Origin: Chloroflexota bacterium | GTDB taxonomy: Bacteria; Chloroflexota; Anaerolineae; Anaerolineales; UBA11579 | DNA length: 64,000 nt | Direction of reading: 5' to 3' | Assembly (NCBI GenBank): GCA_009391835.1 | Contig: QWJF01000005.1 | Location: 1 to 64,000 of the forward strand | Part shown: positions 2,210 through 27,058 of the stretch, one piece after another | Position numbering within the stretch: the first letter of the stretch is position 1 | Layout of the letters: the number at the start of each line of letters is the position of its first letter | Notes under the pieces: generated by a model | Told to the model about the DNA's origin: nothing | The model's input: only the letters and a program-made list of their open reading frames with translations | The model's database searches: none | Made by a program: the position numbers and the translations under genes

Positions 2210-4594
2210 ATGGATACTTCGCCTCTGCGCACTGCTTTGCTGCGACTCAATCCCTTACTGTGGATGTCTCTGGCTTTCCTCTCCGGCGACGCGATCGCTT
2301 TTGCGTTTGCTCTGTCGTGGATTGCATGGCTCCTACTGGCCGTGCTTTCCTTTATGGTTTGGTTGCGTTTCTATCGCCTGCCTCGTTTTCAGTCGCTATA
2401 CAACCTGCCTCTTATCCTTGTTTTAACGTTGGCTGCCTGTGCGTTTTTCCTCGGCGGGCTCCGATATGGAAGCAGCCAACGGCCGCTCGGCGTGCAGGAT
2501 TTGGCATTCTTCAACGATTCCAACAGTCAGGTTGAGATCGTTGGCGTCGTTACAAAGCCGCCAATAAAACGCGATACCTACATTGAGCTACGTCTTCGGG
2601 TTAACCAGCTCGAGTTAGTTTCTTCCGGCCAGCATCAGAACGTAGTTGGCCAGGTGCTTGCCCGAGTCTCCGAAGATAAGGGCTGGCGCTATGGCGATCA
2701 GGTATTGCTCAGCGGCCACTTGGAAACGCCGCCAGAGTTTGAGGATTTTTCGTACCGTGCTTACCTTGAGCGTCAGGGAATTGCCAGCCTGATGCCTTTT
2801 GCGCGCGCAGTTCGCCTTGAAACTGGCAAAGGCAATCCCCTGCTGGCCGCGCTGTATGCCTTACATGATCAGAGCCTGAGCCACATTTATCGGTTGTATC
2901 CGGATCCCGAGGCCTCATTACTCGCGGGCATTCTTCTCGGCGATGAGAGTGGCCTGAGTGATGCATTGAAACAAGATTTCAACAATACGGGTGCCCGACA
3001 CGTCATTGCCATTTCAGGATTTAACATCACGATCATAGCGGGCTTGCTCCTGAGCCTTTTTCGCCGCACTTGGGGTGCCACGCGTGGCACATGGATAGCT
3101 GTGGTTGGTATCTCCCTGTACACGCTCTTGGTCGGCGCAGATGCAGCAGTGGTTCGCGCTGCAATTATGGGCACCCTAACCTTGCTCGCACGTCAGGTTG
3201 GGCGTCGCCAGCATGCGCTGAACACCCTGAGTTTTACCGCCGCCGTGATGGCCTTGCTAAATCCACTCATTCTCTGGGATGTTGGTTTCCAGCTTTCCTT
3301 TGCGGCTACCCTCGGCATTCTCTTGTATGCAGAGCCATTGAACCAATGGGCAGCGCGCCAGCTAGCTAAACGTTTTGCTCAAGAAACTGCAGCCCGCCTC
3401 GCAGGTCCGCTTGGCGAATTTGTACTCATAACCATAGCGGCTCAAATCACTACGCTCCCCCTTCTTCTCTATCATTTTCAGCGCTTCTCTTTTCTTTCCT
3501 TGCCAGTCAATATCCTTATCCTCCCCGTGCAGCCGGCAATAATGGTTTTGGGCGGTCTCTCAATCCTGGTTGCCTTCATTCTTTTCCCATTTGGACAAGT
3601 ACTTGCTTATGCGGCCTGGCCCTTTGCCGCATTCACCATTCGGATCGTTGAAGTATTCGCCCATCCATCTTGGTCAAGTCTTGCTCTGCCTCCGTATTCT
3701 CTCGTTGGTGTTGTGCTTGCCTACATATTGATTGCCTACCTTACGCTTCGCCCACCCGCGATCAAGTTTAATCTTCGAAACGTCCAACCGGTTGCTGTAG
3801 CGAGTGGTCTGCTAATCCTCAATCTTTGGCTGTGGGCTTTCGTTCTCGCTTCTCCAAATGGCCGCCTGCAGCTAACTCTGTTGGATGTGGGCAACGGAGA
3901 AGCTTTGCTGGTTCGCACCCCAACCGGTAGAAATGTCCTGATTAATGGCGGCCAAAGCGAAATCCGTCTTGCGGAGGAAATGGGTCGTTCATTGCTTCCC
4001 AACAACCGCTCGTTGGATTGGTTGCTTGTAGCTGGAGTGGACAAAGATCAAATTGCCGCGCTTCCAGCCTCACTGGAACGCCTTTCTCCCGGCCATATCG
4101 CCTGGTTTGGCTCGCTCAACGCCAATTATGATGCCCGCCAATTACGAGCCGTGGCGGCCGATTCGAATCTGCAAATAGAGATTCCCAATCAGGGGGCAGT
4201 GTTCGATCTGGGCGGGGATGCTTCGTTGCGCGTGCTGTCGGTCAACGAAGCAGGTACCGTCCTTCTCTTGCAGATGAACAATTTTCTCGCTCTGCTCCCT
4301 CTTGGCCATGAGCCGGCCTCTTTGCAAGATTTGGATTGGGGTGAATTAGTAGGCCAGGTGGATGTTCTCCTACTGACGGGTGGCGGCGAGTCTGAATTAA
4401 ATCCAACGAGTTGGTTGGAAAACCTGGATCCCGCACTTGTGCTGCTTAGCGTGGACGCTGCCAACTCCAAGGGTTTGCCGGATGCCGAGGTGCTCAACGA
4501 TTTGCAGCCGCGAACCATTCTGCGCACCGACCAAAATGGCTGGATCCGCATCAGCACCGATGGCAAGCAAATGTGGATCGAAACGGCTCGTTAA
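2210..4594 (+). CDS. comEC: ComEC/Rec2-family DNA internalization protein
   Basis: 794 aa, many TM segments, central competence domain (HVIAISGFNITIIAGLL), C-terminal metallo-beta-lactamase-like part (LTLLDVGNGEALLVRTPTGRNVLINGG). Confidence 0.93.
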   Translation: MDTSPLRTALLRLNPLLWMSLAFLSGDAIAFAFALSWIAWLLLAVLSFMVWLRFYRLPRFQSLYNLPLILVLTLAACAFFLGGLRYGSSQRPLGVQDLAFFNDSNSQVEIVGVVTKPPIKRDTYIELRLRVNQLELVSSGQHQNVVGQVLARVSEDKGWRYGDQVLLSGHLETPPEFEDFSYRAYLERQGIASLMPFARAVRLETGKGNPLLAALYALHDQSLSHIYRLYPDPEASLLAGILLGDESGLSDALKQDFNNTGARHVIAISGFNITIIAGLLLSLFRRTWGATRGTWIAVVGISLYTLLVGADAAVVRAAIMGTLTLLARQVGRRQHALNTLSFTAAVMALLNPLILWDVGFQLSFAATLGILLYAEPLNQWAARQLAKRFAQETAARLAGPLGEFVLITIAAQITTLPLLLYHFQRFSFLSLPVNILILPVQPAIMVLGGLSILVAFILFPFGQVLAYAAWPFAAFTIRIVEVFAHPSWSSLALPPYSLVGVVLAYILIAYLTLRPPAIKFNLRNVQPVAVASGLLILNLWLWAFVLASPNGRLQLTLLDVGNGEALLVRTPTGRNVLINGGQSEIRLAEEMGRSLLPNNRSLDWLLVAGVDKDQIAALPASLERLSPGHIAWFGSLNANYDARQLRAVAADSNLQIEIPNQGAVFDLGGDASLRVLSVNEAGTVLLLQMNNFLALLPLGHEPASLQDLDWGELVGQVDVLLLTGGGESELNPTSWLENLDPALVLLSVDAANSKGLPDAEVLNDLQPRTILRTDQNGWIRISTDGKQMWIETAR

Positions 4595-23766: not shown

Positions 23767-23795
23767 TTGACATAGAATAAATGTTCTAATACAAT
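23767..23795 (+). promoter_or_regulatory. Sigma70 promoter of the PolB operon with an embedded LexA-like box
   Basis: TTGACA (23767-23772), 17-bp spacer, TACAAT (23790-23795). The spacer contains TAGAATAAATGTTCTA (23773-23788). Confidence 0.8.
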
Positions 23796-23796
23796 G

Positions 23797-23818
23797 CTTT
23801 GTACTCACAGGTACAAAG
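23797..23818. repeat. Perfect inverted repeat CTTTGTAC-TCACAG-GTACAAAG abutting the ATG
   Basis: 8/8 bp dyad ending 1 nt before the start codon at 23819. Confidence 0.75.
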
Positions 23819-24415
23819 ATGGCGTATCGCTCAAAGTCACTATCCCGCCCCACGGCCCAAATTCAAACCTTGCATCGCTGGCTGCCGCAAGTGCGCGCTG
23901 GCCAAATATATTTGCTGGTTGGCCCCGCAGGATTGGTTGGCCCCATAGCCCAGGAACTTACCCATCATTTCGCCATCCGCGGCGCCGTCCGCGTCCTGCT
24001 CGGCGGCAATCGCTTCTCTCTGGAGCGTCTCCCCCTTCTATTAGGCGATCGCGGCAATCAGATCTACGAAATCCTCGATCGAATTCAGGTGAGCCGTGGT
24101 GAAACCTGCTACCAGTTGCTTCATGCCCTTGAAAAAACGCCTCGCGATAGCATCCCCTTTATCCTCACCGATGCCCTGGAGACTCTTTATGAAGATGGCC
24201 TCACCCTCATTGAGGTCGAGCGCGTACTGCGTGATAGTCTCGCCAATTTGCGCCAAATCAGCGAATCTGCTCCTGTGCTACTGAGCGCCGCCCACCGTCC
24301 TGATCGCCCTGGATTACTGGAAACTTTGATTGAGGCTGTCGATCATGTCATCGAAGTGCGCCCCAACCAGCCCCTTGCAACTCCCCAGCAGTTGCCTTTG
24401 CTTCCGAACGCCTGA
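23819..24415 (+). CDS. RecA/RadA-superfamily-like protein with a degenerate Walker A, first gene of the PolB operon
   Basis: GQIYLLVGPAGLVGPIAQEL (P-loop position lacks GKT/S), VRVLLGGNRFSLERLPLLLG, IPFILTDALETLYEDGLTLIEVERVLRDSLANLRQISESAPVLLSAA (Walker B-like region). Confidence 0.6.
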   Translation: MAYRSKSLSRPTAQIQTLHRWLPQVRAGQIYLLVGPAGLVGPIAQELTHHFAIRGAVRVLLGGNRFSLERLPLLLGDRGNQIYEILDRIQVSRGETCYQLLHALEKTPRDSIPFILTDALETLYEDGLTLIEVERVLRDSLANLRQISESAPVLLSAAHRPDRPGLLETLIEAVDHVIEVRPNQPLATPQQLPLLPNA

Positions 24416-24780
24416 TGGGCCACACACTCCCGACCATCACCGGTCACTTCGACCGCTTTCTCACCCATCTCTCGGCATTTCGGCGTGCGTTGCGTCGCTC
24501 CGATCAACTTTCCTTGGATACCCTGCTCGGCGAAGCCAAGCAACATACGCCTGCCGCGAGTTATGCCGCCAATGTGGTCCCCGGCGTCACATTTTTGCTC
24601 TGCCTCTTGCTTGAAAAACACAAGCAGATGGAACGCCATGAGGTGGAGTTCGAAAATCTGCGCAGGGAGTTTCGCCTTGAACTGGAGAAAGTGCGTGGAG
24701 AGTTCGAGCTCCTGCGTGCCAAAGAGCGCACCAAATACTTTCTAAAGGGTATCGAAGTTGGCCATCAGCAAAACCCGTGA
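24415..24780 (+). CDS. Small helical/coiled-coil protein of unknown function in the PolB operon
   Basis: 121 aa. Starts within TGATG of the upstream stop. C-terminal coiled coil EKHKQMERHEVEFENLRREFRLELEKVRGEFELLRAKER. Confidence 0.7.
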   Translation: MGHTLPTITGHFDRFLTHLSAFRRALRRSDQLSLDTLLGEAKQHTPAASYAANVVPGVTFLLCLLLEKHKQMERHEVEFENLRREFRLELEKVRGEFELLRAKERTKYFLKGIEVGHQQNP

Positions 24781-27058
24781 AACCACGGGTTGGCTGCTCG
24801 ATATCTATGCCGATCCGCGTGATGGCGCCGTTGTCTGGTTCATTGAGCAGAGCGGTGCCCGCCTTCGCCTAACCCACCAATTTCCGATCACATTCTATGC
24901 TGCGGGTTCGTCTGAGCAGTTGCGTGCTGCTTGGAAGTATCTGCGTAGGTCCTGGCCTGCTGTTCAGCTTGGTAAAGAGGTTCAAAAGGAGCTCTTTGAT
25001 GGGTTGACCGACGTACTCGCCATTAAAGTCCCCAATCCGGCAGTCCAGCCGCGCGTATTTCATAAACTCCACGATCTGTTTCCTGAGCTTGAATACTACA
25101 ACGCAAATCTTTCCCTCCCCCTGCTTTTTCATAGCCTCCATGATGTGTATCCTCTGGCTCTTTGCAAGATCATTGTGGATTCATCCCATCATCTCCTACA
25201 TATCCAGTCCCTTGACAACCGCTGGGAACTCAAAGCATCAGCACCTCCACTCCGAATTTTGCATATCAGGCCGGATACCAACCCAAGCCATGCGATACCC
25301 ACCCAGCTTGAACTGAAACATGCTGACTTGGAGCAAATTCTTTTTACTTCGGATCCCGCTGGCTTGCTTCGCCAGCTTAACACCATCATTGAAGAGTACG
25401 ATCCGGATTTGATCGCCACGCTTTATGGGGATAAGTGGCTTTTTCCCCATCTGTTTGAAATATCAAAGCAAACCGGTGTTCCTTTCAATCCCAATCGAGA
25501 TAAACACCGCGTCCCCATCCGGGTGAAGGAAAACACGTTCAGTAGTTACGGGCGCGTCGTTCACCGTGACAGTCAGACCCTTTTGCTGGGCCGCATCCAT
25601 ATTGATCCTCGCAACTCAATGGCTTTTGAAGATACTGGATTAATTGGAACCTTAGAGCAATCCAAGATTACGGGCTTGCCCATACAAAACATGTCTCGCC
25701 GCAGCCCGGGCGGTGGCTTCACGGCAATGCAAGTGCGTGAGGCGCTGCGCAACAATGTCCTCGTTCCCTTAAACAAGAAGCAGCGCGAACGCTATCAAAG
25801 CGCGTATAGCATGGTGCGGGCCGATAACGGTGGCATCATCTTTCAACCGATTATTGGATTGCATCGCGATGTGGCAGAGATTGATTTCTTCTCAATGTAT
25901 CCGAGCCTCATGGCTCGCTGGAACGTTTCTGCGGAAACAGTAGGCGTCGTGGGAGAGGAAACCTATATCGTTCCTGGCATTGATCGCCCTATTAATCAGG
26001 ATCGGCGCGGCGTGGTGCCTGCTATCTTGCAGCCGGTACTTGAAAAGCGCAGGATCGCAAAGCAAAAGGTCAGGGGTGGCAAGCTCGAGCCAGAAGAGCA
26101 GGAATTAATGGAATCGGTGAACGCCTCGCTAAAATGGCTCGGTTGGGTTTCCTACGGCTATCAGGGCTTTAGCGGCAATCGCATTGGCAGCATTGAAGCT
26201 CATGAGTCCATCAACGCCATCAGCCGTGAGCTTATTCTTCGTGCCAAAGAGGCCGCTGAGGATATGGATTTCGAAGTCTTACATATGTATGTGGATAGCC
26301 TCTTTGTAGCCCAACCCGGCAAGCATCTCGTGGAGGAGTTTGAGCCCCTAATCCAGGAAATGCAGCGGCGTACGGAATTAAAGCTTGATCTTGAGGGCGT
26401 CTTCCGCTGGCTCGCTTTCCTCCCATCCAAGCAAGATGAACGCCTGCCCGTACCCAATTGTTACTTCGGCGCTTTTTACGATGGGCGCGTTAAATGCCGT
26501 GGCATTATGGCTCGCCGGAGTGATACTCCGCTCTTTGTGCAGGAAGTGCAACTGCGTGCGATCGAAATGATGGCCCGTACAAAGGATTTCGACAAACTTC
26601 CCACACTATTGCCCAAGTTGGTTAGCTATTTCCGTCACGAATTTGTGCGCCTACACGAGGGCGAGGTTGAGAAATCGAAACTGGTGATTGCCCAGAATCT
26701 GAGCAAAAACCTCGACGATTACAAAGTCCATTCCGCCGGCGCTCGTGCTGCACTGCAACTCAAAAAACTGGGCAAATCTGTAGGTGCTGGACAGGTTGTT
26801 CGTTATTTGCGCACTCGTGGCGAATTCAATGTGCTTGCCTGGGATTTGGCGCTCACAGGTCAGACTTTTCTTCCGGACCATGATTGGTACGCCGATAGCT
26901 TGCTCCGCGCAGCCCACGAAGTGCTGCAATCTTTTGGGATTGAGAAAGAAATTCTCCGGGATTGGCTAGCCGGGCATTCAACCTACTATCAACCTGAAGA
27001 TTATGTGGCGGCTCCCAAAAGCGGTCTTCCCCTCCTCAGTTACTCCCCACTAGATTGA
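24758..27058 (+). CDS. Divergent family-B DNA polymerase
   Basis: 766 aa, TTG start. Motif A VAEIDFFSMYPSLMARW, motif B-like LKWLGWVSYGYQGFSGNRIGS, motif C MYVDSLFV, KxY-like region CYFGAFYDGRVKCRGIMARRSDTPLFV. Confidence 0.9.
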   Translation: MAISKTRETTGWLLDIYADPRDGAVVWFIEQSGARLRLTHQFPITFYAAGSSEQLRAAWKYLRRSWPAVQLGKEVQKELFDGLTDVLAIKVPNPAVQPRVFHKLHDLFPELEYYNANLSLPLLFHSLHDVYPLALCKIIVDSSHHLLHIQSLDNRWELKASAPPLRILHIRPDTNPSHAIPTQLELKHADLEQILFTSDPAGLLRQLNTIIEEYDPDLIATLYGDKWLFPHLFEISKQTGVPFNPNRDKHRVPIRVKENTFSSYGRVVHRDSQTLLLGRIHIDPRNSMAFEDTGLIGTLEQSKITGLPIQNMSRRSPGGGFTAMQVREALRNNVLVPLNKKQRERYQSAYSMVRADNGGIIFQPIIGLHRDVAEIDFFSMYPSLMARWNVSAETVGVVGEETYIVPGIDRPINQDRRGVVPAILQPVLEKRRIAKQKVRGGKLEPEEQELMESVNASLKWLGWVSYGYQGFSGNRIGSIEAHESINAISRELILRAKEAAEDMDFEVLHMYVDSLFVAQPGKHLVEEFEPLIQEMQRRTELKLDLEGVFRWLAFLPSKQDERLPVPNCYFGAFYDGRVKCRGIMARRSDTPLFVQEVQLRAIEMMARTKDFDKLPTLLPKLVSYFRHEFVRLHEGEVEKSKLVIAQNLSKNLDDYKVHSAGARAALQLKKLGKSVGAGQVVRYLRTRGEFNVLAWDLALTGQTFLPDHDWYADSLLRAAHEVLQSFGIEKEILRDWLAGHSTYYQPEDYVAAPKSGLPLLSYSPLD

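Follow-up and report, generated by a model that had tools for sequence, protein, structure and literature searches.

Three overlapping genes in a 64,000-nucleotide stretch of a Chloroflexota contig (QWJF01000005.1, positions 1 to 64,000; hereafter the window) raise the question of what kind of damage-tolerance machine they encode, and of whether the promoter ahead of them places it under the control of LexA. The PolB2 family, its bacterial form, the sole gene order found in bacteria and a link with LexA have all been published (Makarova 2014, PMC4104785; Timinskas 2025, PMC11791011), and a 2026 survey classes bacterial PolB2 as a mutasome polymerase. As developed below, we consider it very probable that the locus is a bacterial iRadA-PPB2-PolB2 mutasome operon of Anaerolineae (Chloroflexota), carrying a LexA operator in its promoter and serving inducible mutagenic bypass.

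Organization and conservation of the operon

The three genes lie adjacent on one strand in the order iRadA, PPB2 and PolB2 (Table 1), which is that of the PolB2 mutasome operon. An initial annotation had described three physically coupled genes, and re-reading of the sequence reproduced its coordinates and overlaps base for base: the ATG of PPB2 overlaps the TGA of iRadA (TGATG), and PolB2 starts inside the end of PPB2, with an overlap of 23 nt.

Table 1. Coordinates of the operon and of its promoter, protein and active-site features in the window
Feature	Positions	Strand	Description and basis
Sigma-70-type promoter TTGACA-17-TACAAT	23767..23795	+	11/12 matches
LexA-type operator AGAATAAATGTTCT	23774..23787	+	Inside promoter spacer; same box class at lexA and orthologous operons
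Perfect 8-bp inverted repeat CTTTGTAC-N6-GTACAAAG	23797..23818		Between -10 hexamer and iRadA ATG
iRadA (gene 1)	23819..24415	+	198 aa; RadA/Rad51 homologue without ATPase motif; AlphaFold, Foldseek, no Walker A
Candidate beta-clamp-binding motif QLPLL	24389..24403	+	iRadA C-terminus; C-terminal motif comparison
PPB2 (gene 2)	24415..24780	+	121 aa; small protein, conserved MG[R/H]T N-terminal arm (here MGHT)
PolB2 (gene 3)	24758..27058	+	766 aa; B-family polymerase, inactivated exonuclease; TTG start
Leu228 replacing catalytic Asp of Exo II	25439..25441	+	Alignment
Y511-V512-D513 replacing canonical D-T-D of polymerase motif C	26288..26296	+	First Asp lost, as in PolB2; alignment

Conservation of the gene neighbourhood had been proposed as a check, and the trio turned out to be kept in nearly all related loci with sufficient contig. 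Among 400 sampled genomes of the phylum, a strong match was obtained in 23 besides that of the window, and for one of them the locus is cut by the contig end; in the remaining 22, iRadA always lies upstream, and PPB2 is a gene of its own in 21, the last one showing an apparent fusion of iRadA and PPB2. In this last case (L019:446-1501), both proteins seem to share a single reading frame, a type of fusion already published. The best 80 loci from 84,980 species genomes belong almost entirely to Anaerolineae, and among them the trio is present wherever the contig reaches far enough, with the exception of one locus (L037). Recoding was considered for the closest relative (L105, 59% identity) and rejected: its contig is short, and the stop codons resemble frame shifts.

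Several observations stand beside this general pattern. Some genomes or metagenome-assembled genomes (MAGs) hold two PolB2 operons (G120, on C6 and C10; L054/L059; L063/L076), and the genome of the window also encodes one Y-family polymerase. Moreover, the whole trio of iRadA, PPB2 and PolB2 is found in LE1-type Leptospira phages, with PPB2 unannotated and in another frame; in phage vB_LbrZ_5399-LE1 (KF114879.1, L122:3201-6457), the MGRT start of PPB2 lies near 3735.

The partner proteins iRadA and PPB2

Neither Pfam nor NCBIfam gave a credible family for gene 1 or gene 2, for which reason profiles built from orthologues and structure were used instead; a weak match of gene 2 to UTP15_C, far below the cut-off, was discarded. 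An AlphaFold model of iRadA built from 22 orthologues (pLDDT 86.6) matched RadA, Rad51 and Dmc1 in Foldseek, with a best E value of 2.7e-8, a probability of 1.00 and TM scores of about 0.6-0.7. The best 50 structural matches were all of the Rad51/RadA type, with not one bacterial RecA among them, and no Walker A was found in 99 of 100 iRadA orthologues. The protein therefore combines a Rad51/RadA fold with a missing ATPase motif, as expected for iRadA. In this regard, gene 1 had been labelled as degenerate RecA-like: the RecA-superfamily fold was indeed recovered by Foldseek, but the correct label is RadA/Rad51-like.

The C-terminus of iRadA reads QQLPLLPNA, and a clamp-type motif of the form Q-x-(x)-L/M/I/F-F/L occurs at this end in 76 of 100 orthologues (e.g. 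QLPLF and QPALF). The candidate motif of the window ends in LL and is followed by PNA, and so differs from the canonical form, in which QLxLF closes the protein. Regarding PPB2, its published arm is MGRT (Timinskas 2025, PMC11791011), and across 100 loci the N-terminus is MGRT in 85 and MGHT in 8, the others being close variants; the window, with MGHT, thus encodes a small protein with an arm of the MGRT type. The orthologue profiles also recognise the haloarchaeal partners, encoded in the same gene order, with values of 5e-14 for iRadA and 3e-22 for PPB2.

The PolB2 polymerase

The third protein matches DNA_pol_B and archaeal-type PolB models of Pfam and NCBIfam, and its structural model (pLDDT 87.2) has archaeal PolB enzymes as nearest structures, such as those of Pyrobaculum calidifontis and KOD polymerase. 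Alignment with proofreading enzymes reveals that the pair of acidic residues in Exo I and the Asp of Exo II have been lost. The published signature of PolB2 is a dead exonuclease together with replacement of the first Asp of the DxD motif (Timinskas 2025, PMC11791011), and the enzyme of the window fits it, with the exonuclease residues gone and DTD changed to YVD. The published contact of the PPB2 arm with D(K/R) in the polymerase has a candidate counterpart in the invariant D283, after which many relatives have R or K and the protein of the window has P.

Such losses could also mean that PolB2 is a dead polymerase with a purely structural or regulatory scaffolding role, an inactivation inferred by early authors (Makarova 2014, PMC4104785) from a protein family in which, as here, the first Asp of motif C is replaced and the exonuclease residues are lost. 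We regard this as very unlikely, given that D376 (the Asp of motif A) and D513 (the second one of motif C) are kept and invariant among the aligned relatives, and that the Dpo2 of S. islandicus, also devoid of the first Asp, is reported to be active in translesion synthesis as an extender (PMC8764526).

In a tree of 43 polymerases, from which crenarchaeal Dpo2 is absent, the PolB2 of the window falls in a clade (support 100/99) with plasmid-borne haloarchaeal PolB2, while KOD, Pyrobaculum PolB, E. coli Pol II and other Chloroflexota PolBs remain outside. Grouping with proofreading replicases, which had been named as evidence against a damage-tolerance role, is not what the tree gives. On a separate matter, the PolB2 of a MAG labelled Deltaproteobacteria (L046) nests inside the Chloroflexota clade, beside Desulfolinea, which reflects either a recent transfer or a mis-binned contig.

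Nearly all of the PolB2-family sequence marks that were tested are thus found in the window: the gene order, the iRadA fold without Walker A, the PPB2 arm, the exonuclease loss, the DTD change and the clamp-like motif. The operon could alternatively be taken for a member of the ImuA-ImuB-DnaE2 mutasomes, which follow the same logic of a dead RecA-superfamily protein and an error-prone polymerase under LexA, but this has practically no chance of being right: the polymerase is of the B and not of the C family, ImuB is absent from the operon, and the 50 top structural matches of gene 1 were already seen to be of another type than bacterial RecA. Membership was consequently rejected, the operon encoding neither a C-family DnaE2 nor a Y-family-like ImuB.

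Evidence for LexA control

A single promoter with a LexA-type palindrome had been claimed ahead of the trio, and both elements are there, the palindrome lying in the spacer of a promoter that departs from consensus at one of twelve positions. TTGACA-N17-TACAAT is the best promoter in the region, where promoter-like matches as such are not commoner than in shuffles (3 vs 2.9). The box is one base off AGAAC-N4-GTTCT and keeps 7 of the 8 core positions. A match of this grade is not significant alone, as 1.02 are expected per 64 kb, and its weight comes from its recurrence at orthologous operons and at lexA.

The genome of the window does contain lexA, and a perfect box (CGAACGAATGTTCG) sits in the -35/-10 spacer of the lexA promoter, just where the polB2 operon has its own. 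Furthermore, 21 of 22 relatives have a perfect GAAC-N4-GTTC ahead of lexA, so that the LexA box of these bacteria is defined empirically; LexA and a promoter box of its own type, at 7/8 core positions, accordingly coexist in this genome. Upstream of iRadA, a perfect box occurs in 23 of 96 operons, compared with 0.1% of shuffled upstream regions, and a box with at least 7/8 positions in 39 of 96, compared with 4.3%, an enrichment whose binomial values overstate independence owing to near-duplicate loci and common ancestry. In the whole genome, a relaxed form of the motif gave 8 sites versus 2 for the reversed control; a perfect LexA-type box (L113:1501) precedes the gene of a putative radical SAM protein of DNA modification/repair (TIGR03916-like, L113:296-1489). 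Altogether, the lexA promoter, the 21 relatives, the operon enrichment and the genome-wide sites make LexA control of the operon a well-supported prediction. The same genome has two recA genes (G000:C2:24021-24977 and G000:C21:161-1120), both over the family cut-off, and one of them shows a 7/8 LexA-like box about 40 nt upstream. The open-access literature yielded no paper that treats LexA boxes of Chloroflexota alongside PolB2.

An unlikely alternative is that the PolB2 mutasome escapes LexA in this bacterium, the palindrome having arisen by chance or serving a different repressor, for instance one that binds the repeat at 23797-23818. The core mismatch of the box, its chance-level frequency when taken alone, the 57 of 96 related operons without any box and the perfect 8-bp inverted repeat located where transcription probably begins would all fit such a scenario. 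Against it stand the exact placement of the box in the promoter spacer, as in the lexA promoter of this very genome, its strong enrichment in orthologous operons, and the excess of relaxed-motif sites over the reversed control, one of them adjoining the radical SAM gene. Under LexA control, the reading that we favour, the inverted repeat could possibly act as a second operator. An RNA switch formed by a leader hairpin was also considered and dismissed, the fold not being significant (z = -0.51).

Operons lacking the LexA box

The absence of the box from those 57 operons could have meant that their genomes lack LexA or that their LexA recognises a different site; both explanations were tested and rejected, since LexA keeps the box on its own gene in the genomes checked. 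Boxless operons (L002-L008, L010, L016-L017, L020-L021, L024 and others) have in common C-rich direct repeats about 100 nt upstream of iRadA. In this element, most CCC runs follow one another at 11-13 nt, and an inverted half rich in G often adjoins the -35 position. Moreover, 49 of 55 boxless operons show a -10 sequence, TANNNT, 4-9 nt before the start codon (5.5 expected), a spacing so short that it suggests leaderless transcripts.

The exact C-rich element was found at the operon site only in two of three genomes searched, and the remaining matches in the three genomes, with 3 mismatches each, occurred at about the frequency of the reversed control. The element is possibly a control element independent of LexA. 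We tentatively propose, with slightly less than even confidence, that two alternative switches coexist in Anaerolineae, LexA in some lineages including the present one and an operon-specific C-rich element in most others. If true, a LexA-independent regulator not yet described would have to act on a mutagenic polymerase. As the wiring of the operon is not uniform, control with and without LexA could be compared for one and the same mutagenic machine in cultured Anaerolineae. Both the C-rich element of boxless operons and the trio of LE1-type Leptospira phages look unreported.

Proposed mechanism

By analogy with other members of the family, the operon most likely works as published: a PolB2 bound to one iRadA and a PPB2 trimer, acting in association with the clamp as an error-making extender past lesions. 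LexA, bound between the -35 and -10 hexamers, would keep the operon off until DNA damage activates RecA, whereupon self-cleavage of LexA would allow the three coupled genes to be expressed together. PolB2, lacking proofreading, would then extend primers past lesions. On one side, iRadA would hold PolB2, binding it as one Rad51 subunit binds the next, and could contact the sliding clamp through its candidate motif. On the other, the PPB2 trimer, a stoichiometry taken from published models of other members, would hold PolB2 and insert its N-terminal MGHT arm near the active site. The expected outcome in the host is an inducible and mutagenic lesion bypass.

Comparison with known systems

The operon type was acquired by bacteria from archaea and is already described, and the window is a well-supported further example. 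With the published bacterial PolB2 mutasome (PMC11791011, PMC4104785) it shares the gene order, the inactive iRadA fold, a PPB2 arm of the MGRT type, the lost exonuclease, the loss of the first Asp of motif C, the beta-clamp-like motif of iRadA and a tie to LexA. It differs in its arm (MGHT), in the three residues that follow QLPLL and in the nature of the LexA tie, which is here an operator in the operon promoter and in the published cases a neighbouring lexA gene. The initial reading as a PolB-based damage-tolerance system is in this regard supported by fold, tree and co-conservation, but it had missed that published bacterial version with neighbouring lexA. The present promoter-level and comparative evidence supports the idea that bacteria have put an archaeal-derived B-family mutasome under SOS, which the literature had inferred from neighbouring lexA genes.

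As for archaea, the three-gene crenarchaeal Dpo2 operon named in the initial annotation was the right precedent, the trio being of the same PolB2 ("Dpo2") type. The archaeal Dpo2 is reported to have a damage-inducible, error-prone role in tolerance. The operon of Sulfolobus islandicus, reported to be damage-inducible, encodes the same three protein families, but it is under Orc1/Cdc6-linked control and works with PCNA, whereas the window has a bacterial promoter with LexA and, putatively, the beta clamp. Finally, the ImuA-ImuB-DnaE2 and Pol V mutasomes likewise join a RecA-superfamily subunit, an error-prone polymerase and a small partner under LexA, but with a different polymerase family, different subunits and different interaction surfaces, so that the likeness is one of logic and not of membership.
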